DNA from: Thecaphora thlaspeos | Lineage: Eukaryota; Basidiomycota; Ustilaginomycetes; Urocystidales; Glomosporiaceae | Direction of reading: 5' to 3' | DNA length: 64,000 bases | Assembly: GCA_900291925.1 (NCBI GenBank) | Contig: UWYS01000001.1 | Coordinates: 1,240,001 to 1,304,000 of the forward strand | Shown here: in pieces, positions 4,453-60,328 of the stretch | Numbering within the stretch: position 1 is the stretch's first letter | How the letters are laid out: each line of letters opens with the position of its first letter | Program-made: the position numbers and the translations under genes | The notes under the pieces: generated by a model | What the model was told of the DNA's origin: nothing | Database searches by the model: none | What the model saw: the letters and a program-made list of their open reading frames with translations, nothing else

Positions 4453-4555
4453 TGCAGTCTGGAGGAATCGAACATCCGTCTAGTCGGAGGGCGGAAATAC
4501 CGCGACATCTCCTTGGAGCCACAACGACTCGTACTAACCACTATACTAAGACTGC
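4453..4555 (-). tRNA. tRNA-His (GTG) with a 31-nt intron
   Basis: On the minus strand the acceptor GCAGTCT (4549-4555) pairs with AGACTGC (4454-4460), with A as discriminator at 4453. The D arm contains TAGTGGTTAG. The anticodon stem AGTCG/CGACT holds the loop TTGTGG + C, giving anticodon GTG. The intron sits after position 37, the usual nuclear tRNA place. The mature length is 72, as expected for a tRNA-His that receives G-1 after transcription. The T stem has one non-canonical T:C pair (GGATG/CCTCC), so slightly reduced function cannot be excluded. Confidence 0.85.
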
Positions 4556-31235: not shown

Positions 31236-31855
31236 TGAGGGGACAACGGATCCAGCGAGCGGCAGGGAATTGAAGCGAGTACGTTCTATAAGCTAGTCAG
31301 AGATGGACGGAAACAGCATCGACCGCTGCTACATATCCTGTCCCATTCCTTACATCGCCGGCACCACGATGGGAGATGCGGGGTGGTGGACATCTCTTTA
31401 CAGTAGCGAACGTAGCGGCAAACGAGCCAGCCGCCAGTTGCTTTTTGGACCACTGGCACTTGTTCTCGAGCGTCGGCATCTTGGCCCGAGTATGAGGTTG
31501 CATGGCGGCGGCTGAGATGGTGCTGCGGCGAAGCGTCGCGTTTCAGCTTCACCATGAACCTCATCCACCTCGCCGTCGAACACAACAACAGTAGTTAGTG
31601 GGCAGGAGCTAACTACCACGTGCGTCACGTGCGAGTTGATTTCAACGATAACGATGCTTCGGATGACGGTGGATGCCGGACTACGCCTTGCATAGATGAA
31701 GAGTCGGTACATATGGATCCAAGGAGCAAAGGAGCACGTTCCGCCAACGTAGCCGCTCCGCCCTCAGCTTCATCGGGGACAGTCGAGCCAGCCTAGCCCG
31801 ATCCCGGAGGCAATGCGAACAAGTGCGGGAATAACGAGATGGAGCAGCACGGCTG
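31236..31855. other. CpG-rich intergenic DNA, no gene seen
   Basis: Promoter side of the phytase-type remnant up to the edge of the CpG-depleted island. No coding frame with a recognisable motif. Confidence 0.45.
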
Positions 31856-32449
31856 GTGATCAGGGTTGTTGTGCGGTGTTAGCTGGCAATGTTGTGTGCC
31901 AATTTGAAAGAGGTGTATGTACTGTACAGTATGTATTGTAGCCCCCTGTCCCCACCACCAGGCACAAATCTTTGCCCTGCACCTTCTTATTGGCTCTTGC
32001 CAATGACAACATGGCTGAGCACTTGCGCTCCAACCAGGACACTGGCCTTTGCTGCCCTTTGCCATAGTGCATCTTTGGGAAGAGATAAGATCATGACCAA
32101 ACCATAGCCATAGCCAAAATATGAATTTTATTGTCAATTGCTCTCCCTTGCCATTGGTGTCTTTCTGAAGTGGAGCATCCAGGTACATTGGTTCATGGTC
32201 AACCTCTCTGTACCTGACAGTGTGAGGGGTGCAAGACAGACACCCACTCTGAGCCCATGCTCTGCTGCTTGCAGCTGTGGGGGAGGATGGAGTGAAGGGG
32301 TGGAGGAGTGGGGGGACCAAGTGTGTTCCCCCTGCCCCCTCCACCCTTCTCTTTGCAAAGTTTTAATCTTCTTTCCTGGAAGCCAAGCTACACCTTGCAC
32401 CCACACTGTGGCTTTGCTGCTCCTCCACTCCAATTTTTGTCAGCAGCCC

Positions 32450-32455
32450 TATAAG
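32450..32455 (+). promoter_or_regulatory. TATA-like box before the alcohol dehydrogenase pseudogene
   Basis: TATAAG about 127 bases upstream of the ATG at 32582, followed by a C-rich leader. Confidence 0.4.
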
Positions 32456-32581
32456 AAGGCACACACAACATCACTGCTCTCCATTCCCTTCCCTACCCTG
32501 ATCCCAACCAAGCCACACATACCCATCCCACCTGTGACATACCACACTAAGTACCACCCCCTCACCAACTACCCAGCAAAG

Positions 32582-33976
32582 ATGAGTGCCAAGGGATATG
32601 GGATCAGCAACACCAAGAACTGGACCAACTTCAAGGTCACCAAGTACAAGCTCAAGACAGCCAAGGACAATGACATTGATGTTGCCATTACCCACTGCAG
32701 TGTCTGAGTGAGTATAGCTGCTTGACTGGTGTAGTCTATGTTCTTGTGATAGTGCTTCTCACCCTACTGATTGCTGCAGATCTCTTCCCTTCACACTGCT
32801 GCTGCATACACACAAGGGCTTAGACATCTAAACCATCTCAGGCAGCTGGGGTCCCCTCAATGTCAAGATTGTTGTCCCTAGCCATGAGATTGTCAGCCGC
32901 ATCACAAAGGTAGGCAGCAAGGTAAAGGACATCAAGGTTGGCAACCACATTGGCATTGGTGCACAGGTTGGTTCCTGCATGTCCTGCTGGCCCTGAAAGA
33001 ATGAAAACAAGAACTGTAAGTAGGTGATGATGTGCAAGAACATTCATTTTGCTTTGCATAGGAGCTGTTACTTGTTTGCTCAACTTATACTTGAACCTGC
33101 TTGTCCATGCTCCTGTTCCCACAGACTGCACTGGCAATGGCAAGAGTGGCATTGTTGACACTTACAATGCCATTTACACCAATGGCAACATTAACCAGGG
33201 AGGTTACTTGACTGCCATCCACACCCACCAGCAATTTGTCTTCCCCATCCCCAAGGGCATCAAGTCAGAACATGCAGCGCCCACGCTCTGCAGCGGCTTG
33301 ACCATCTGCTTGCCTCTTGTCTGCAACAGCATTGGTCCTGGAAAGAAGATTGGAATCATTGGCATTGGTGGTCTTGGACACTTGTGAGTTGAATTATTGT
33401 GATGGTGGAGAGGGAGAAAACAAGATGACTGACTTTTTGATCACCTCACCCTTCTGTCTTTTCCTGTGCCCCTTGTCCCATCCACAGCAGCGTTCTGTTT
33501 GCCAAGGCACTGAGTGCCAAGGTGGTTGCCATCTTGCACTCCCCCAAGAAGCACAAGGATGCACTCAAGATGGGTGCTTTGCACTTCATCTTGACGGCCA
33601 AGAGCCTGTCTGGACCTCAAAGTTCAAGGACAAACCCTTCAACCTGATTGTCAACATGGCCTCTTCAAACACCATCAACTTTGCCGCAATCCTCTCTATG
33701 CTCAAGGTGCAGGGAAAGCTGATTGCTGTCAGCATGCCCAAGGATGAGTTCAAGATCCGCATCCAGAACCTGGCTGGCAATGGCTGCCTGCTCAGCAGCT
33801 TGCACATTGGCTCCAAGACCAAGGCTCTGGCAATGCTCAAGCTTGCCACTGAGAATAATGTTGAGCCATGGATTAAGCTGATCCCAATGAAGGACTGCTC
33901 ATAGGCAGTCAGGCGCATCAAGGACAATGACATCTGTTACCGCTTTGTCCTTGAGCAGGACATTGAGAAGAATTAG
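32582..33976 (+). pseudogene. NADP-type cinnamyl/medium-chain alcohol dehydrogenase pseudogene (Adh6-like)
   Basis: Exons about 32582-32707, 32780-33015, 33125-33383 and 33488-33976, with intact GT/AG introns. The frame follows zinc-dependent Adh6-type dehydrogenases: YGISNTKNW at the start, HEIVSRITKVGSKVKDIKVG, GPGKKIGIIGIGGLGH (Rossmann glycine motif) and FNLIVNMASSNTINF. Lesions: TGA at 32705-32707, exactly where the catalytic-zinc Cys of the CSVC block should be; the start of exon 2 no longer matches the family, with a stop before TISGSWG; TGA at 32994-32996 in the structural-zinc loop; a frameshift near 33600-33620; TAG at 33902-33904, where Gln is likely. Nearly all CpG in the gene is gone. 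It is non-functional, but recent enough for its splice sites to survive. Confidence 0.85.
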
Positions 33977-34229
33977 AGGAGGGTGTTATGACCCTGCTGG
34001 CCATGTAGGGACCAATTGGGCCTGACAGGCCTAGCGGCCCCTGTTGAGTACCAATTGGGCTTGAAGCACTCCCCCTCCAGCTCTGGAGGCAAGCTGGCTC
34101 CAAACATGGGAATACAGGGGAGGCCTGCTTGGCCATTGTGCAAGGTAGGACTCAATACAGGGAGGCTGGGCAGCCTTCTGCAGGAGCCCCTTGGTCCATA
34201 AGTAGTAGAGAAAAAGCCGTGGGCCCTAC

Positions 34230-34720
34230 AGCTTCCCCTTGTCAAATGTACTATACTGTCTTCTAGATAGCAAGGTACACTGTTGACACCCAATTGCCCT
34301 TGGCCTCTCCTGCAAGCCTCTACCTAGCCCGCAGCTGCTCCCATGGTATCCTCAAGTCCCTGTGGGCCATGCCTAACCAAGGGAAGCCATGGATGTCAGC
34401 ACATTGTTTTCATAATTTATTGCTCCTGTGCTAGATTTAGTGGACAGAGGATAGCCAGCTCTTAATCACAATGTTACATGACAAAGATAAGCCTGTACTT
34501 TAGGACATGTGAAAGTTAGTCCAACAAGATGGAGGATGCTATGTACAACAAAGAGCATGCAGCAATCAAAATGGTGTTAGGCCCCTGGGGTCTGGGTACC
34601 GCTGGGCTGCCAAGGGCAGAGGGGGCTTGCTGGAGAGGCTGAAGAGTGTACAGGTGTTGACATTGCACCAGAGCCCTAATAGACTATGTAGTACATTTGA
34701 CAGTGGGGCAACCTGGGGGC
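34230..34720. repeat. Imperfect inverted repeat around a 250-base AT-richer core
   Basis: TGTCAAATGTACTA at 34240-34253 recurs inverted at 34689-34702. The flanks show further patchy inverted similarity (GTTGACACC-like and CCTCTCCxGCAAGCC blocks). This may be the ends of a decayed non-autonomous element. No coding content in between. Confidence 0.4.
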
Positions 34721-35249
34721 TAGCCAGAGTCCCAAGCTATATATATCACGCCAGGGGCTCTTGAGGCCCTACCAACCCTACTGAGGGACTTCACACCTTG
34801 GCCAAGCGTTGACTGGACTTGGAACCAGGGGTCCTTGCAACTCCTGTGACCTGGTACTTGGCCTGTTGGAATGTGGCCCAACAAGTGTCAGGAACTTGCT
34901 GCATATGATGCTGTCTGCCAAGACCTTTGCCAAGGTGGCAGGCAAGCACAGAATTGGAAAGGATACGCATGTTGTTGTATATGTGAGTGTGGTGGTGGTG
35001 TATATGTTGGCTTGGCAGTGTGCATTGCTGATTGTCTACGGTTTTGCAACTCCCTTGCAACTGCTCAGGACACTCATAGGTGAGTCTCCTTAAAGCAGTC
35101 TAGGTCAAGCTGATGCTGTGGAACCTTTGGGCTCTGACATACCACCTCTCTCTCTCTCTCTATCTACACAACATATTTTTGTTGTTGCAAACTGCATTTA
35201 CCTTCAAGGTGCATCCATCTTTATCTGCTGCAACTTGCAAGGTTAAAGA

Positions 35250-35840
35250 TGCAAAGATGACTGACACCATTACTCATGGGCTCCAACAACCTCACAGGCC
35301 TTCAGACATGCCAAGGTTTCAGTGCTCAACAGAGGCCTACCTGCTTGGATCAATGCTGGCATTCTGGTGGAAGAGGGTCCAAAAAAGGAGCAGGTTAAGG
35401 TAAGCTGCACCAGCATCCCTTGAATGACTTGTTCTGACAGCCATTGACCCTGTTGCCATATTCTCTGCTCTCCTTGCAGCTGTTCAAGTACCCAGTCTCT
35501 GCTCTGACAGAAGGGATGATCCGCTTCTTCAAAGAGATGGTTGCCCATGCTCTGCAGGGAGCATACAGCCAGACTGTGTTGGATGCCTGTCCCAAGGGTT
35601 GGTTTGACGGTAAATCTCCAAAGCCCTGGCAGGGCCTGTTGTCAGGCCACATTCTGGGCTCTCTCTTGCTGCCCTTTTCCACCCTGCTCAACACCCAGGC
35701 CTCAAAGGACAGCAGCACCACACTCAAGGATCAGACTGAGCTGTGGAGGGTGCTCAGAAATGCCATGGGAGGTATGGATGCTCTTGATAAGCTCAGGCAG
35801 GGATCAAGTGGTGGACAGTTGGTGGCAACAAGCATGTGTG
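35250..35840 (+). pseudogene. Rhodanese-type sulfurtransferase (3-mercaptopyruvate/thiosulfate) remnant
   Basis: An exon ending at 35399 reads FRHAKVSVLNRGLPAWINAG, the end of a first rhodanese domain (family: HxxVSVLDGGLPAW). After an intron (35400-35479) the next exon, 35480 to about 35840, reads ALQGAYSQTVLDACPKGWFD, GKSPKPWQGLLSGHILGSLL and MGGMDALDKLRQGSSGGQLV. These match the second domain's DARPxxRFxG, PEPRxGLxSGHIPGS and GLEKLRQG blocks. The active-site loop (family CGSG) is altered to SMCGE. No upstream first-domain exons with a clean frame were found, and stops are frequent beyond 35840. The family transfers sulfur in cysteine catabolism. Confidence 0.62.
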
Positions 35841-35849
35841 GTGAGTGTC

Positions 35850-38090
35850 TCAAAGACAAGGGGTGCTTGAGCTTTCTGCAGCCCAAATCTCCACTGACAT
35901 TGTTGCTTGTGCTCATCTGCAATGTTTGGGTGTTGCGTTGACAAACAATAGGAAGCAGCATGACAGCATCCTGTGTCTGACTAGCGCTGCAGGAGGTGGG
36001 AGTGCAGAGCAGTATCTACAATGAGATGAGTCATCTACCTCTTCACAAAGATAATACAGCTGACCATGTTGCAGTCATGATGATTGCTGACAAGGACAAC
36101 ATTATATCTCTGGTTGCTCTGTGGTGGTTATTAGAGCTGGCCAGGCTGGGTTTTGAGGGAAAAGGAAGGTGTGCCAATCAGCAAGATGCCAGCAGAGTGA
36201 AGAGATGGGGTGTGTTCAGTCTCTGTTGGCAGCAAAATGGAGTGATGGTGTTGGAAGAGAAGGCAGAAAAAGAGGCCAATACAGTATGGGGAGGCAGGGA
36301 AGGTTGTGTCTGTGTCTGGCATTGCCTTTGACAGCCTCTGCCTTGGCTGGCTAGCCTACCTGATTAGCGCCAATGCACTTTGTTGCAAGGCACTACGCAA
36401 CATGGGCATCTCAGAGGAAGAGCAAATGCCAAAGAACAAGATCAACAGAGAGCTTGACATGAGTCCCTTTGATGCAGTTGATAACCTTTGCTTGAGAGCA
36501 TGATGTGCTGAGGCCCTGTCATTGCGTTTGCATGTCAAAAGATGACAGACAACAAGAACATCTACTTCCTCTACATGTACTAGACAAAGTCTGGAGTCAT
36601 CAGTGGCAAACAAGACAGAAGATGATGTACATTGAATGTGATGCCTTCTTGCAATGACAACTGATTGCCTTTGGAACAGCTGTCACCTAACAGAGTACAT
36701 ACAGTATGTACTATGTGTACACACACCTTTAGCTGTTTGGCAAGACTGTTGTGCATAAGTAAGGATGGTGATGGAGGGAATGCAGGGGAATGTCCTACTC
36801 TGACTGGAAGAACTCTGATGGCAAAAGAAAGGTGGTTGCTCATCTTGGGGTCTGATACACTCCAGTTTCAGCAGGCTGTAAGTTGTGTGGAGAGCAAGCC
36901 AGGTGCAATGTATGACTCTTGTCAAGTGCTGACCAAGCAGGTGCACCAAGCTCATCAAGAAGCATGGCCCAACTCTTTTCTGGCTATGTACAGTTGCTTC
37001 CATTAACCTAGTGGTGTGGATTGGAAATGGAGAGGAAGGAAGGAGGTGGGGGAGCAGTGTCCAAGGAACAAAGAATAACCTGCTGCCCATGAATTTTATC
37101 TCAAATTTGACAGAGCAACATGTCCATCTTCTCTGCTTGGCAACCACACCCTCACACCAGTGACCTGGACATGACCCTGAATGAACAAGGCAATGTTGTC
37201 TATTCAGATGCTTTCCTACTCCTTGTGGCTGTCATAAAGTACTGTATGTAAAGAGCAGCCACTGCCAAAGCACAGTCAATGGAGAATGCCAAGTCTACTC
37301 CCATCCAACCAGGCAAGGTGGACAAATGAGGCTTGACAAACATGCTAACTACCTGCCCATGCTGACAGGCCAGATACATCTACAGTCATTTAAGCACACT
37401 CTCTGTAAGCCATGACTGCCATGCTACATACTGTACTGTACATATATGCTCTAAGCATGAAAGATGTGGGCAAGGCAGAGCAGAAAAAACAAGCTGGGCA
37501 TCCTGTACAGTCTTTACCAAAGAAAGTGGTTGAGATTCTAAGTATTGCCAATGGACCAAGATCTCTGTTAGGCCCTCAATGTGGGCATACAGATAGATGG
37601 CCATGTTGATGCCACTCAAGACTAACTACCATACTCTTAGGTACCTTACAGTACACTCAAGACCAACTATAATCCTTGCAGTGTGGCCTGGTCATGCTCA
37701 ACCTAGCCCACAAGATGTAAGCTGACTGCTCTGGGTCTGCCTGCAGACACAGGGGCAATGAGGTGGTGGTAGAGATGATTGCAGAAGGCATGCAGTTGCT
37801 CAAGAAGTGCACCATCATCCCCAAACCAGTCCGAGCCTGGAGCAAGCCAGCCAGCGACAAGAGGCATGCACAAGTTCTTCACATGCCATCTGCCAACTTG
37901 TGCCTCAGCTCCCCGTCCCACCCCTACCCAGCCTGTGGAGCCGACACACACTCTGCCTTCCTCCCATTGCCCTGCAAGAGACTGTGATGTTGGCCCTTGC
38001 TCGTTGGCTATGCTATGATGTATGTACAACAATAGCGCCGCACCCCATTGCCACTCCAACAACAGCTAACTACAGGATAGGTGAGCCAAG
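35850..38090. other. Unassigned part of the CpG-depleted island
   Basis: Short frames such as 36306-36503 (ending NKINRELDMSPFDAVDNL) and 37763-37987 look like worn-down coding sequence, since they lack low-complexity bias. I cannot assign any family. Repeated TACAGTA-type palindromic motifs occur (for example around 36700, 37425 and 37650). Confidence 0.35.
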
Positions 38091-38100
38091 CCCCCCCCCC

Positions 38101-38858
38101 GTGCGTTCAGTGTTGCACCAGCGCACAACAACCCAAGCATACATGGAGCGGTTCATGGAGCGGTTCATGGAGCGGTTCATCGGACCGACGTATACCGACA
38201 GCGGTTGTCCGGCTCCTCGGAGCACAAGACGCCGGCAACATTCTGCAAAGCCTCCGTACTTGCAAAGAGTAGCACTGGAAACACTTACACTGTACGTCAA
38301 GACTGTACAGTGCAGTACGGCAACACGGCAAACGACGGCCGACTCCTTCAGCGACCCACGTCCGACTCTTAGCGTCGACTGGACCGCCGTCCGACCGACT
38401 CAGCACCTCGGACCTGTCCCACTCCACGCTTCCCCCAGTGCCTTGCGGCTTGGCTCTCCCACTTCCTCCGGCCTGCACTAGCCGGCGCATTGTCGCCATG
38501 GGTCTCGACCTACCTATCTGCTCGCCGTTATGTCCACCTGGACATTTATCCGGCTTCAGCAATGCTCTTTGCGCTGCAGAGACTGTCAAGAGACCGGTGA
38601 CCATCTCACCCACAATCTCGCCTCCCTCTCGCCTCCCCCCTCCCCCTCCTTGTCCCCCCTGCGTTCACCACTCGATTGCCTGACTGGTCGTGTCGTCGAG
38701 CCACTTGCTCTTCCTGCTCTTCTGACTTCTACGACGCTACAGGCGATGGCAATCACCATTTTCCCCGGACCGACGGAAATCGACACCACACTGCCTCTCT
38801 GCGACTTTCAGTAACCCGCGTACGACACCACCGCAGCCGCCATTTGCCATCCTAGCCT
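38101..38858. other. Upstream region of the transcription-factor-like gene
   Basis: CpG-rich DNA resumes here. It holds three 12-bp repeats (38144-38179). I searched all forward frames for a Zn2Cys6 cluster that could be spliced to the gene downstream and found none. Confidence 0.45.
38144..38179. repeat. 12-bp tandem repeat, three copies
   Basis: Three perfect head-to-tail copies of ATGGAGCGGTTC, just beyond the right edge of the CpG-depleted island. Confidence 0.85.
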
Positions 38859-49949: not shown

Positions 49950-52900
49950 TCACGAGTCCAGTTTGCGGATGAGGAACACGTACTCGTGGTAGCCGATCTC
50001 GATCTTGCGCAGCATCTCCGTCCGTCCAGCGTCCAGGCCAGCCTGGCGGCTCACCCGTCCATCCTCCTGCGCCCTGACCCACGACATGCCATCGTCCCCA
50101 GCTTCGTCATCCGTGCTGGGTACAGCGGGACGCAACTCGTCGCACACCAGCACCGATCCCAGTCGCTTCTTGCGGCACAGCATCTCGTACACCTTGAGCG
50201 CCTTGGACAGCGTCCGCTGCTCGGCCGTAGTGGCGACCACGCTGCCGCCCGTACGCAGCACCGCCATCCAGCTCTCCAGAAAGGCCGTGTAGAGCTTCGA
50301 GAGCGACTGAGTAGACTTCTCCCTCCGTCCCCAAGGCAGGTCCTGAGCGCGCGACACCAGGAGAGAGAGAGAGCAACAAAGTGGCGCTCAGCTACACGAA
50401 CATTGGCCTTTCGCCTAGTCTCCCTTCCGCCTGGTACTCACGGTGACGATGGCATCTATGCTATTCCTCCCGCCAACAAAGGCGACCAGGTCCTCGGTCT
50501 TGGTGGTGTCGACGTGCTCGATGCTGACCTTGATGCTCTCCGCGTCAAACGCGCAGAGCTCGGCAATCTTCTGCGCCCGCTCGATGGTCTCTCCGTCGTT
50601 GTCGCAGCCAAACACGTCGGCTTTGATCCCTCGGCTTTCGAGCGCGCTGGCGGTCTCGAACGCGATCGACCCGTGGCCGCAGCACGGCTCCAAAACCCGC
50701 ACACGCCTCGGCCGCTGCGATCCCGCCGCCTCCAGACCGTCCTCGTCGTAGCTCAACGGGATGGGCACCGTCAGTCCCAGAGTCGACGCGCGGTACTGCG
50801 CCATGGTCGTGCCGCCGATGATGATCTCGTTGCGCTGCGTGGGACGACGGGCATGCGTCTTTAGCGGCTTCGGGAGGCAAAAGAGGAACGACAGCTGGCC
50901 TTCCACCCTCGCCTCCGGGTCAGCCGCCGTCACGTCGAGCGCCTTTTCGAACTCGTCGGCAACGCCAAAGCCGGGCGAAAACTTGAGCGTAATGTCGAGT
51001 AGCGGCTCCTCCAAGTCCACCTTCCACTTTGGCGGCGTCTCGGGATCCTGCTCCTCCTCCGCGCCGTTGAGCCAGGTCCAGGCGAGGATGCCAACGTGGT
51101 TGCCTAGCGACTTGGTCGTCATGCTCGGCAGCACGTAGGTAGACCGGTCGACCGAGGCACGGTACGTCAGCTGCTCTGGTCGTAAGGCCGTCTGGTCCAT
51201 GGTGGCCAGTTGGATATCGAGCCATGCCTTGAAGGCTCTTTCACGCGACTCGAGGGATGCGTTCCACGTCCCGTCGATGAGCACGAGAAGCTCCTGCTCC
51301 GAGTCGTACGACGGCGATGCGGCCTCTCCGTTCGCCTCTGCGTCCTCGTCGTTGTCGTTCTGCTCGCCAGCTTGAATCGCCTTGTTCTCATCGTCGTCGT
51401 CGTCCTCGCCGCCATCCCTCTGAGGCACGTCGGCGGCGACAGCTTCTGCGGCCTCCTTCGCCATACGTTCCTTGAGGCGGAAGTCGACGTCGTCGACCAC
51501 CCTCGCCGCCTCCAGGATTTTTCCATCCTTTTTTCGGTAGCCGTAGCCCTTCTTGCCCTTGCCCTTCTCGAAGCCCCTGCGCCGGTCGCTGGCCCGTTTC
51601 TTGGCCCTGCGGCTGTCTCCTGCAGCGAGCCTGTCTCGCTTGAGATCCTCGTAGAGCTTCTCTGGGAAGTCTGCTGAGCCCGCCAGGACGTAGGCCGACT
51701 TGGCCACGCAGAGGTCAGCGTCAAGGTACGAGCGTAACGCAAGCGATGCATACTCGGGATCGCTGAGGCATACGTGGGCCGACTGCAGGCTCGTCGCGAT
51801 GGCGCCCGATCTCGTCGCCGGTTTCCGACCGCGCGAGTGGGCTGCCTCGTGGTGGATGCGCTGGAGGACCTCGCGCTGTGCAAAGTCCTCGAAGCCTCGG
51901 AAGACCTCAAAGACGATCGGAGCGGCAAAGCATCCTGGCCGCATGGCTCTCGCGACCCTATCGGTATCGGACGGTCCGGAAGAGGCCGCTGCGCCCAGCT
52001 CCCGTCGGAGCGGGAAGTCGACCAGGTGCCTTGCTCGCCCAATCGCGACTCCTCTAGCGCCAGCCTCGAGCGGCCTCGGTACGGCAAGAGCCGCCGCCTT
52101 CGCCTGAATCTCGGACGAGATGGTGTTGCCCGAAGCCGAGGAGCCCGCGCTGATGGACGGCCCCTGAGCAGCGAGGAGGTCCTTTGGCAGCTTCTTCTCG
52201 CCGTCGCCCCATCCTCGCTGCAGTACAGAACGCCAGTCGTCTCGTGCCCACCATGGCAGGGCGTCCTCGAAGCTCCAGTCGTCTAACCAGTACTTGATCG
52301 CGTGCAGGTAGATGAAGAGCTCCTCCGGCGCTGGATCAGGTAGCAGCGGGCTGTGTGAGATCCGTAAGATGAGGAGGCAACGGGGCAGGTACGCCGTGAT
52401 CAGCTGACGTCGTGACACGAGGGCATGCTTCGCCTGCGGCGGCACTCACGATTTGCAGTCGGCGCAAAAGTCTGACGACTGCTCTCGGACTCTCTTCTGC
52501 CACGCCGTCTCGATGTCCTGCGGGCGGTTGAAGCCTTTTGCGGGGACCTCTCCGCCTGCGTTGAGCTTCTCGAGCGTTCTTCGCAGCAGCTCGTCGTCGG
52601 AAGGCTTGCTGCTCCTCCCGTTGGGACCGGGGACATAGATGTCGACGAGGCCCTCCTTTTCGTTGAGGTCCTTGAAGAGTACCTCGTCCTTCCACCGAGC
52701 CCAGTTGTCCTTGCCGTCTTTGTCCGACTTGATCGCGTGGACTACCTCTTCGACCTCCTTGAGCCCGATCTCGCCGCCGACCGTCTTCCACTGGTCAGGG
52801 ACAACGTTGACAAACTGGCTCGTGTCGACCCGCTGCCAGATATCGTGGCCGTAGATCGGATCGTTGCAGATGGGATGGCCCAGGTACTGGATGTGGACGC

Positions 52901-53777
52901 GAATCTGGTGCGTCCGTCCAGTGATAGGCCGGCCTGTCGAGGTGCGTGGGAACGGGCAGAGGAGATTGCCGATGTCAGTGAGGTAGTTGCGGCGGGCTAT
53001 AGCATGCCCGCTGCCTGCAACCCCGAGACAGCTGCGCTACTCACAGAAGACGACGCTCGAATCGTCCTCGGCGTCGTACGAGAGCCTGACGAAGATGGTC
53101 TCGCAGTCCTTGCCCTTTGGGTGGACGATGTTGACGCCGCTCTGCCGATCGATTGTGAGGATGGGCTCCTTGCAGGCGACCTCGCCATCTGGGAACTTGC
53201 CGCGGACACGGCAGACGTAAGCCTTGTTGACACGTCCGGAGTGGAACTGTGCGCTGATCCGGGTGGCGGCCTGCTTTTCGGTGGCGCAGACCATGATGCC
53301 GCTGGTGAGACGGTCGAGGCGATTGACGGTGTAGATACGCTCAATGCCGTGCTCGCTCTTGAGCAGCTCGGTCAGGGTGTGTTTGAAGTAGCGACCCGCT
53401 GCATGCACGGGTATGCTGCCCGGCTTGACGATGACAAGGATGCCGGCGTCGTCGTCGCGATGGAGGACCTTGATGGGTTCATCGGTGACGGGGGGCTCGT
53501 GTCGGTGGACGTTGTTGCAGATGAGGTCTCCGTCGGTGATGATGAGCCTTGGGTCGCCACGCTTTCCGTTTACGCTGCAGACGCCTTTGTGTATGGCCCA
53601 TATGTAGTACTCCTTTGTGCGGTCGCGGAACTCTGTGGTGAAGATCTCGAGGAGCTCCCGACCGAACCAGCGCTGCTTGGCGTAGGTCTGGAACTTGTAC
53701 CAGTAGGGCGGCGTCTTGCGCAGGCCAGTCCTGCTCGACTCGGCGACGTCGCTGGAAGCTTGCGTTGTAGACGACAT
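49950..53777 (-). CDS. Fusion: RluA/Pus9-type pseudouridine synthase + THUMP-related RNA guanine-N2 methyltransferase
   Basis: Exons 53045-53777, 52450-52933, 50442-52350 and 49950-50342, giving 1,172 residues; all junctions are in phase with GTGAGT donors. Residues about 20-440 are a Pus9/Rib2-like synthase: [20 protein letters not shown], catalytic [10 protein letters not shown] (Asp near 155), [19 protein letters not shown] and the C-terminal [18 protein letters not shown]. The same uninterrupted exon continues into a methyltransferase of the THUMPD2/3-Trm14 type: [17 protein letters not shown], an Asp-rich linker, the AdoMet site [16 protein letters not shown] near 956, and, in the last exon, [11 protein letters not shown] (family DLPFGKR) near 1042. 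One polypeptide could thus isomerise uridine and methylate guanosine, probably in tRNA. No stop separates the halves. Confidence 0.85.
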
Positions 53778-58130: not shown

Positions 58131-58250
58131 AATCTGCGGCCATAGAGCCGTGAAAACACCGTATCCCGTCCGATCTGCGCAGTTAAGCACGGTATCGCTC
58201 AGTCAGTACTGCGGTGGGGGACCACGCGGGAATTCTGAGTGCTGCAGGTT
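58131..58250 (+). rRNA. 5S ribosomal RNA
   Basis: 120 bases with the fungal 5S signatures CCCGTCCGATCTGCGCAG, GTTAAGCA and GGTGGGGGACCACGCGGGAA. The ends pair over ten positions (AATCTGCGGC with GCTGCAGGTT), forming helix I with two G:T pairs. CCGTG pairs with CACGG as helix II. A T-rich stretch (TTTCTTTTTCTTTT) directly after the 3' end fits RNA polymerase III termination. It stands alone, outside any ribosomal DNA unit. Ends may be off by one or two bases. Confidence 0.92.
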
Positions 58251-58773: not shown

Positions 58774-59790
58774 TCATAACGCCATCTTCCTTCCATCACA
58801 GAACAGTACCGGTCTATCGCTGCGACCAGGTACGAGGGATCTCTTCCACCTCACCTCCATCCTGCCCTCCAAGAGGCCGCGGGGGCCGGCCAGACCGTCG
58901 TTCCACACTATCGTCTGACACCTATCCACCACCTCAGCCATTCCGGCTTCTCCGGCCTGTTCGACGTGTAGCAGCATCATGGGAAACAGGCTGGAACGAG
59001 CCTGCATAAGCGCCTGTTTGCTGAAGCCTGAAGACGAGGCGATGATGCCGAGCACAGGCGCGTATAGTTCATCGTCGGACTCGTCTGAGTCGGTTGGTGT
59101 CGATGGGCGGGAGGAGGAGGCGTGTGCACGGTGTAACACCCCCTCAACCTCCCGTACGATGACCGGACCAATCTTCTTTCCTCCCTGGTGTTGACACTTG
59201 CACTGCGCCACGACTCGTATCCGTCGGCCGATCTCCACCTCATCGTGAATACTCTTTTTTGAAGGTGATGGGACCCTCCACCATCCTTTCAAATCGATCC
59301 CCTTGTCTCCTGCCCCACCGCAACGTTCTAGCTCCATGCCAAAGACGTGACCAAGCACGGAACCGCAGAGGTTCTCAAAGTCGGTCCCTCGAGCGACGGA
59401 ACTTTGTGTCTGCGTTGAAGAGGCGAGAGACAGCTTGGACGGTACTGATGGCTGTGGTGGTTCGTCCGATGAATTCGAGGATAGGGCCTTCTTGCTGCTC
59501 GATCGTTTTCGGGTGGTCGTTGGGCTCTTCAGCTCTTCCGGGGTCGTGGAGGCGACCTTGGTCCGCTTGCTCGTGCCTGCCTTGGAGGACGTAGCGGAGG
59601 TTCTCCTCGTCCTTGAAGCAGCGTCTGTGTCTTTCTTCTCTTCTTTCGCCAGGCGAGGATATGGTGCTGTGAAGACGCATCGGTGTCTCGATCCGGATCT
59701 AGCTGGAGTGGCCGCGGTCCGAGCAGAGACTGCGCTTGTTGAGGCCGCTCCGCAGACAAGCCGCCACGCCACGCGAGAGCGGCTCAGCAT
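58774..59790 (-). CDS. RRG7: Rrg7-type mitochondrial protein with a restriction-endonuclease-like fold
   Basis: 338 residues, single exon. The start at 59790 (MLSRSRVAWRLVCGAASTSA) gives a mitochondrial presequence; a longer frame to 59904 does not. After a Ser/Lys-rich linker the conserved domain reads GTDFENLCGSVLGHVFGMEL, ERCGGAGDKGIDLKGWW, VVAQCKCQHQGGKKIGP and VREVEGVLHR. The Asp of DKGID and the Gln-Cys-Lys form a PD-(D/E)xK-like catalytic core. Yeast Rrg7 is required for respiratory growth and mitochondrial DNA maintenance; its exact reaction is not established as far as I know. The family is recognised from its motifs. Confidence 0.82.
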   Translation of the reverse strand: MLSRSRVAWRLVCGAASTSAVSARTAATPARSGSRHRCVFTAPYPRLAKEEKKDTDAASRTRRTSATSSKAGTSKRTKVASTTPEELKSPTTTRKRSSSKKALSSNSSDEPPQPSVPSKLSLASSTQTQSSVARGTDFENLCGSVLGHVFGMELERCGGAGDKGIDLKGWWRVPSPSKKSIHDEVEIGRRIRVVAQCKCQHQGGKKIGPVIVREVEGVLHRAHASSSRPSTPTDSDESDDELYAPVLGIIASSSGFSKQALMQARSSLFPMMLLHVEQAGEAGMAEVVDRCQTIVWNDGLAGPRGLLEGRMEVRWKRSLVPGRSDRPVLFCDGRKMAL

Positions 59791-60328
59791 GGCCGTCAGG
59801 GGTATATGTGGTAGGTGTGATGCGGGACCGCTCTTTCCGGGTATCGTCAGGCTGTGTTCGGTCGATGGAGCATAGCGCCGAGGTGGGAGGTGACGGTCAG
59901 GCAAGAGGTGAGGCAGGCAGGCACGCGGCCTTTTTACGTCGCATTTCTTCCAGCTTTACAACGTCTTTCCCGGAAGCCGGGACCTCCTCAAAAAACCTCC
60001 ACTTCACCACCTCGACAGTGACAGTATACAGACGTTCACAGGCCGAGACGAGTCTATCGTGAGAAGAGCATCATGCGCTTTCATACCTATTCCTTCTGAC
60101 TAGTATTCTTACATCTATCTACGTAAGGCGGGAGGCAGGGGTTTAAATCGTGCTACAGTTGCAAACAGGTACAGCGCGTGAGAGAAAGTCCATTTCGAGG
60201 CAGGCGAGCCAGGATGAGGCGAGTAGGGTGCGGTACGTCTGTATAACTTTGCGAGGTTGCGAATGCGGAGAGTCTAGAGGGCCCAGAGTTTGACGATGCG
60301 GAGAAGGGAAAGTACTGTAGACGCAGAC
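59791..60328. other. RRG7 promoter and protease 3' flank
   Basis: No gene recognised in about 540 bases. Confidence 0.5.

Follow-up and report, generated by a model that had tools for sequence, protein, structure and literature searches.

Can a single fungal gene encode two complete tRNA-modifying enzymes? The question is raised by a 64-kb stretch of the Thecaphora thlaspeos genome (here, the window), whose minus strand carries a four-exon gene at 53777-49950. From the DNA letters alone, this gene had been predicted to join a pseudouridine synthase to a THUMP-type guanine-N2 methyltransferase. We find that the spliced reading frame, the Pfam domains of its product and 35 database proteins that carry both domains bear this prediction out, so that the fusion is confirmed and its interpretation supported. 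We consider it likely that this one polypeptide combines a pseudouridine 32 synthase with a methyltransferase producing N2-methylguanosine (m2G) at tRNA position 6 or 7, and that methylation was later lost in Malassezia.

Gene structure

Splicing of three GT-AG introns (111, 99 and 99 bp) yields a 3519-nt coding sequence and a product of 1172 residues. All features of the gene lie on the minus strand. According to the spliced translation and the match to Pfam family PF00849, exon 1 (53045..53777) holds the start codon and most of the synthase core, which ends in exon 2 (52450..52933) together with a helical extension, again as read from the spliced translation. Exon 3 (50442..52350; 1909 nt) encodes the synthase C-terminal block, the linker, the ferredoxin-like and THUMP domains and the front of the methyltransferase, and exon 4 (49950..50342) runs from motif IV, DLPWG, through the stop codon. 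The C-terminal block of the synthase family, which contains PLLPDP (52299..52466, a span that takes in intron 2), straddles the exon 2/3 junction within the codon of its Ser, and from PLLPDP onward it belongs to exon 3. Intron 3 (50343..50441; 99 bp) falls between ...AIVT and DLPWG..., with exon 4 opening on the first base of DLPWG.

Do the two enzymes really share an uninterrupted exon, as had been proposed? Exon 3 has no stop in the coding frame, as compared with 11 and 9 in the other two frames of its strand, and the chance of an open frame of 636 codons at its base composition is about 1.6e-8. Chance read-through of a missed stop was ruled out because the joined architecture recurs in 35 other proteins.

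A different possibility is that two adjacent genes only seem joined and give two proteins, by way of an alternative polyadenylation site behind the synthase part and a promoter inside the gene. Retention of intron 1 (52934..53044; 111 bp, GTGAGT...CAG) brings in an early in-frame TAG and the TGA in the donor of intron 2 (52351..52449; 99 bp) stops the unspliced frame at CADCKS, so that either retained intron would end translation inside the synthase or before its end. The linker that separates the enzymes (residues 449-547; 51927..52223) is also variable, with 60-121 residues across the 36 rows with an intact methyltransferase (measured over residues 449-552), it has mostly low pLDDT (predicted local distance difference test) values in the predicted structure of the closest relative, P0001, and some Met occurs in it in 23 of the 36 rows, the window among them. 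Nevertheless, no more than 3 of the 36 rows share a Met in any column, retention of intron 2 would delete the conserved PLLPDP block, the open exon crosses the enzyme junction and both domains are found in one gene model in 35 database proteins. Moreover, the second half of the Malassezia proteins has lost its catalytic motifs and yet stays joined, which is hard to square with a free-standing gene. Two separate products are thus very improbable, and we retain the reading of one gene with one fused product.

The pseudouridine synthase half

The window protein matches PF00849 at residues 113-260 (E 8.4e-28, above the cut-off), and P0001 reaches 228.6 bits with TIGR00005, the RluA subfamily model, whose curated cut-off is 192.7. 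All 29 members of alignment A1 (28 of the 35 fused matches plus P0060) match this model at E <= 0.01. The motif NRLDRLTSG (residues 152-160; 53298..53324) contains the catalytic Asp, which is kept in 36/36 intact rows, P0038 included, and in 14/14 Malassezia-type rows. The R, H, Q and R of the GRTHQIR motif are present in 22/22 intact and 12/12 Malassezia-type rows of alignment A4, which comprises 22 of the 35 fused and 12 of the 14 Malassezia rows and omits P0038, so that its 22/22 figures miss the Glu of that row described below. Where does the synthase end? The mushroom protein P0051 terminates soon after the same C-terminal block, and hence the fusion point lies where a synthase naturally ends.

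We assign the N-terminal half to the fungal Pus8(Rib2)/Pus9 branch of the RluA-family pseudouridine synthases. It resembles yeast Pus8 (Rib2) and Pus9 in its RluA-family core and in its NRLDR...SG and GRTHQIRVH motifs, and the names of source records cite RIB2 and tRNA pseudouridine(32) synthase. Synthases of this branch form pseudouridine 32, and yeast Rib2 also bears a second enzyme domain, a deaminase. By analogy, the synthase half most likely makes pseudouridine 32 in the anticodon loop, an assignment pointed to solely by source record names (P0011). The second domain of the fusion differs from that of Rib2, being a THUMP-type methyltransferase; no deaminase domain is among the 9 Pfam families found at E <= 1 in the window protein, and all six places of the genome that match PF00383 lie outside the window. 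PMC8256712 mentions a deaminase domain in fungal Rib2. Since the fusion has no such domain, the source name 'DRAP deaminase RIB2' is misleading.

The methyltransferase half

The second half matches UPF0020 at residues 957-1099 (E 1.7e-15). In the predicted structure of P0001 it consists of ferredoxin-like, THUMP and Rossmann domains as in Trm14/TrmN, the structures that match it best along its entire length. With limits placed manually on the P0001 model and mapped to the window, the N-terminal ferredoxin-like domain spans residues 548-669 (51561..51926) and the THUMP domain, matched in structure to Trm14/TrmN, residues 753-902 (50862..51311). A linker and the Rossmann methyltransferase domain follow (residues 903-1172; 49953..50861, taking in intron 3), as indicated by UPF0020 and the structure. 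The Pfam THUMP model (PF02926) is not among the families found in the window protein and gave no match in 8/8 members at E <= 10, a search in which HMMER filters discard most weak matches; the predicted structure covers this domain.

Both catalytic centres had been described as looking intact, and this holds: besides the synthase Asp, the window protein has the S-adenosylmethionine (SAM)-binding motif I, EPCCGHG (residues 960-966; 50670..50690), and the catalytic motif IV, DLPWG (residues 1043-1047; 50328..50342), which follows the pattern (D/N)xP(aromatic)G. Each column of the two motifs is kept in 34-36 of the 36 intact rows. The Glu of motif I is present in 36/36 intact and 0/14 Malassezia-type rows; for motif IV, the figures are 36/36 and 0/14 for the Trp and 35/36 and 1/14 for the Asp. 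P0038 is the sole intact row with Glu in place of this Asp (SELPWGQ), and its methyltransferase may be a further weakened one, outside Malassezia.

Which RNA would such an enzyme methylate? Trm14, TrmN and THUMPD3 methylate G6 or G7 of tRNA. The same order of ferredoxin-like, THUMP and Rossmann domains is found in Trm14, TrmN and THUMPD3-TRMT112, and by analogy the C-terminal half is most likely an enzyme of this type, forming m2G at position 6 (or 7) in the acceptor stem. These enzymes are described without a synthase domain in the accessible part of PMC9957541; in the fusion, a synthase precedes the methyltransferase in the same chain. P0001 scores 37 bits with NF040721, the NCBIfam Trm14 equivalog (cut-off 280); this model is archaeal, and the low score speaks against archaeal Trm14 orthology, not against membership of the wider family. 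The methyltransferase half probably works with Trm112, as enzymes of the eukaryotic THUMPD3 type do, and the genome encodes a Trm112 domain match (E 6.6e-6, with one stop within the stretch).

It could also be that the fusion is real and its methyltransferase acts on another RNA, either rRNA as AviRa and RlmL do or U6 snRNA as THUMPD2 does, the two enzymes being joined for regulation or localisation and not for work on one tRNA. Several observations weigh on this side and against a tRNA substrate: the window protein matches AviRa, an rRNA methyltransferase family, above the Pfam cut-off, AviRa comes second in the profile search, and RlmKL-type structures fit the second half well. In addition, U6 snRNA is the substrate of THUMPD2, which belongs to this group of enzymes, according to the abstract of PMC13109388. 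Against this, the tRNA m2G6 enzymes Trm14 and TrmN are the best matches in both structure and profile searches, RlmL/RlmKL and AviRa rank below them in structure (and RlmKL also in the profile search), UPF0020 beats AviRa by 57.7 to 28.8 bits in the window protein, and the source record of P0011 is named tRNA pseudouridine(32) synthase. We regard another RNA substrate as unlikely and keep to a tRNA m2G6 or m2G7 enzyme.

A Trm11-type (m2G10) identity was considered as well. Trm11-Trm112 has a domain set identical to that of the second half, but it is disfavoured by a poorer fold fit (root-mean-square deviation 8.6 vs 3.0), and the genome has another UPF0020 gene that looks Trm11-like. This presumed identity draws on the N-terminal motifs of its product, on a UPF0020 match and on 40 bits with TIGR01177 (cut-off 316.55); among solved structures, none matched the product at E <= 0.01.

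Distribution and descent of the fusion

A full-length search of 5.8 billion proteins, in which candidates were 0.55-1.75 times the query length (about 645-2051 residues) and unfused synthases of ordinary length were therefore invisible, returned 59 matches. Both PF00849 and PF01170 are carried by 35 of them, which answers the call of the original prediction for the same domain order in related genomes; 14 form a Malassezia group, two (P0018 and P0019) stop short and eight are mushroom synthases. The Malassezia group comprises six proteins named Malassezia and eight placed by trees (12 rows in each tree, all 14 between both). The listed Pfam domains of the eight mushroom proteins, whose class we take to be Agaricomycetes, do not include the methyltransferase (5/8 were rescanned), and given the length range these are long proteins only.

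The fusions of Pseudozyma flocculosa and Thecaphora frezii have 74% identity across 99% of the query. In the Ustilaginomycetes, fused proteins occur in these two species and in Ustilago, Sporisorium, Testicularia, Violaceomyces and others; in the Exobasidiomycetes, they occur in Tilletiaria, Ceraceosorus, Microstroma, Sympodiomycopsis and Parajaminaea; and Malassezia represents a third class. Lineages were checked for six species, and the classes of the remaining ones are presumed. A record bearing the name of the fern Adiantum nelumboides (P0025) carries the fungal fusion protein and has close kin from another source (P0026); it is most likely fungal contamination of a plant assembly.

Searches for a free-standing relative of the methyltransferase, each scoring about 8000 candidates sharing 5-residue words, returned no such protein. 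With the half alone as query, P0018 (fused, short) and P0060 (fused) were found; with an alignment of eight halves, P0023 and P0025 (fused), P0061, which starts inside the synthase C-terminal block, and P0062, a partial protein of 298 residues.

Have the two halves travelled together? From a working alignment of 58 of 60 rows (P0052 and P0059, longer than 1500 residues, were left out), trees were built for the synthase half (56 rows, P0049 and P0058 being dropped by length) and for the second half (48 rows). P0042 and P0048 were omitted from the latter, and from the profile comparison of the halves (12/14 Malassezia rows vs 8/36 intact), because their gene models run on into PF20151. The trees give matching groups, namely Microstroma/Sympodiomycopsis, Tilletiaria, P0021-P0026, Violaceomyces with the smuts, and Malassezia; their deepest forks are partly unresolved, and agreement was judged by the groups recovered. 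The second half evolves about three times faster (1.56 vs 0.47 changes per column between the window and P0003). As far as the sequences go, the matching trees fit a single fusion followed by joint descent, and we infer that one fusion before the sampled Ustilaginomycotina classes diverged would be the simplest history.

A second half without an active site in Malassezia

All 14 Malassezia-type proteins keep the synthase catalytic Asp and a recognisable, in-frame second half, from which the SAM and catalytic motifs are gone. In the 12 with ordinary gene models this half has about 420 to 460 residues. In the other two, P0042 and P0048, the fusion protein continues into a DUF6533 (PF20151) stretch, which is probably a merged neighbouring gene and not a third fused domain. 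In the synthase-half tree Malassezia branches within the intact fusions, and the loss of the methyltransferase motifs is hence secondary.

Why would a second half without an active site be kept? The main rival to retention for binding or stabilisation is that it is a functionless, slowly decaying relic, carried along by the reading frame it shares with a needed synthase. The SAM region has indeed shrunk (mean 72 residues vs 133 in intact proteins), the Malassezia group sits on a long branch of the second-half tree (2.2 changes per column) and identity to intact rows is low in every region of the second half (0.19-0.26). On the other hand, not one of the 14 proteins has lost the in-frame second half, and some positions away from the SAM site do not vary across 22/22 intact and 12/12 Malassezia rows, examples chosen from a list of invariant columns being G563, E565, D566, W760, R800, P806 and R1156 (P0001 numbering). 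Within Malassezia, the rest of the second half is more alike (0.45-0.46 identity) than the SAM region (0.34), and the predicted fold is confident, though it was built from an alignment mixed with intact relatives and so leans towards their fold. A mere relic appears doubtful to us. Since the motif loss is secondary and the second half has been retained, this half probably serves a purpose other than catalysis, the simplest being to hold the tRNA for the synthase, as judged from sequence comparison.

Genomic context

The window is GC-rich and belongs to an assembly of 20.6 Mb in 32 contigs. A complete 5S rRNA gene (58132-58250, plus strand; Rfam RF00001, 110 bits), the only rRNA match in the window, lies about 4.4 kb upstream of the start of the fusion gene. 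A tRNA at 4453-4555 (minus strand; Rfam RF00005, 47 bits) is absent from the ARAGORN output under bacterial settings, and its 103-base span suggests an intron. GC content drops to 0.505-0.538 at 32-40 kb and no frame of at least 280 codons lies between 31296 and 38856, so that 31300-38850 is possibly a gene-poor or repeat-derived stretch. Finally, the open frame at 58774-59955 (minus strand) may resemble Rrg7-like mitochondrial proteins with a restriction-endonuclease fold.

Discussion

How might the two enzymes work in one chain? THUMP modules grip the CCA end of tRNA. The fusion protein would thus bind one tRNA by its 3′ end, the methyltransferase site would modify the acceptor stem to m2G at position 6 or 7, and the synthase site would isomerise a uridine in the anticodon loop, so that both sites could act on one bound tRNA. 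In Malassezia, the methylation chemistry would have been lost later with the domain retained. The pattern suggests that what the second half contributes to the synthase by binding or by stabilising it counts in its own right. A further proposal, to which we give an even chance, is that the Trm14-type half is mainly a tRNA-holding arm of the synthase, and that Malassezia dropped methylation while keeping a pseudo-methyltransferase; by catching tRNA ends, or by stabilising the synthase, this domain would allow the distant anticodon-loop uridine to be modified.

Has such a fusion been described before? According to a table in PMC9957541, Pus10 also has a pseudouridine synthase and a THUMP domain in one protein; its entry there is that of a THUMP-containing synthase acting at positions 54 and 55 and not that of a methyltransferase. 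The fusion is not described in the titles or abstract starts of the open-access literature searched. The architecture is visible in databases; discussion of it was not found in that literature. What is new is a domain architecture made from known enzymes and an unexpected pseudo-enzyme stage in one lineage.

These findings correct source names limited to 'pseudouridine synthase' or 'related to DRAP deaminase RIB2' ('tRNA pseudouridine(32) synthase' being the third name in use), and point to a Trm14/THUMPD3-type enzyme in some fungi, whereas baker's yeast has none, the yeast ortholog of THUMPD3 being given as absent in PMC10415138. If our reading is right, a single-chain enzyme would carry out two chemically unrelated modifications at opposite ends of the tRNA and would offer a natural case for testing the order or coupling of tRNA modifications, with Malassezia, where the fusion is kept and the methylation motifs are gone, as a ready-made separation-of-function control. 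And if the second half is indeed mainly a tRNA-holding arm, one of two fused enzymes would have turned into the substrate-binding domain of the other, with the intact and the dead state found in one subphylum.
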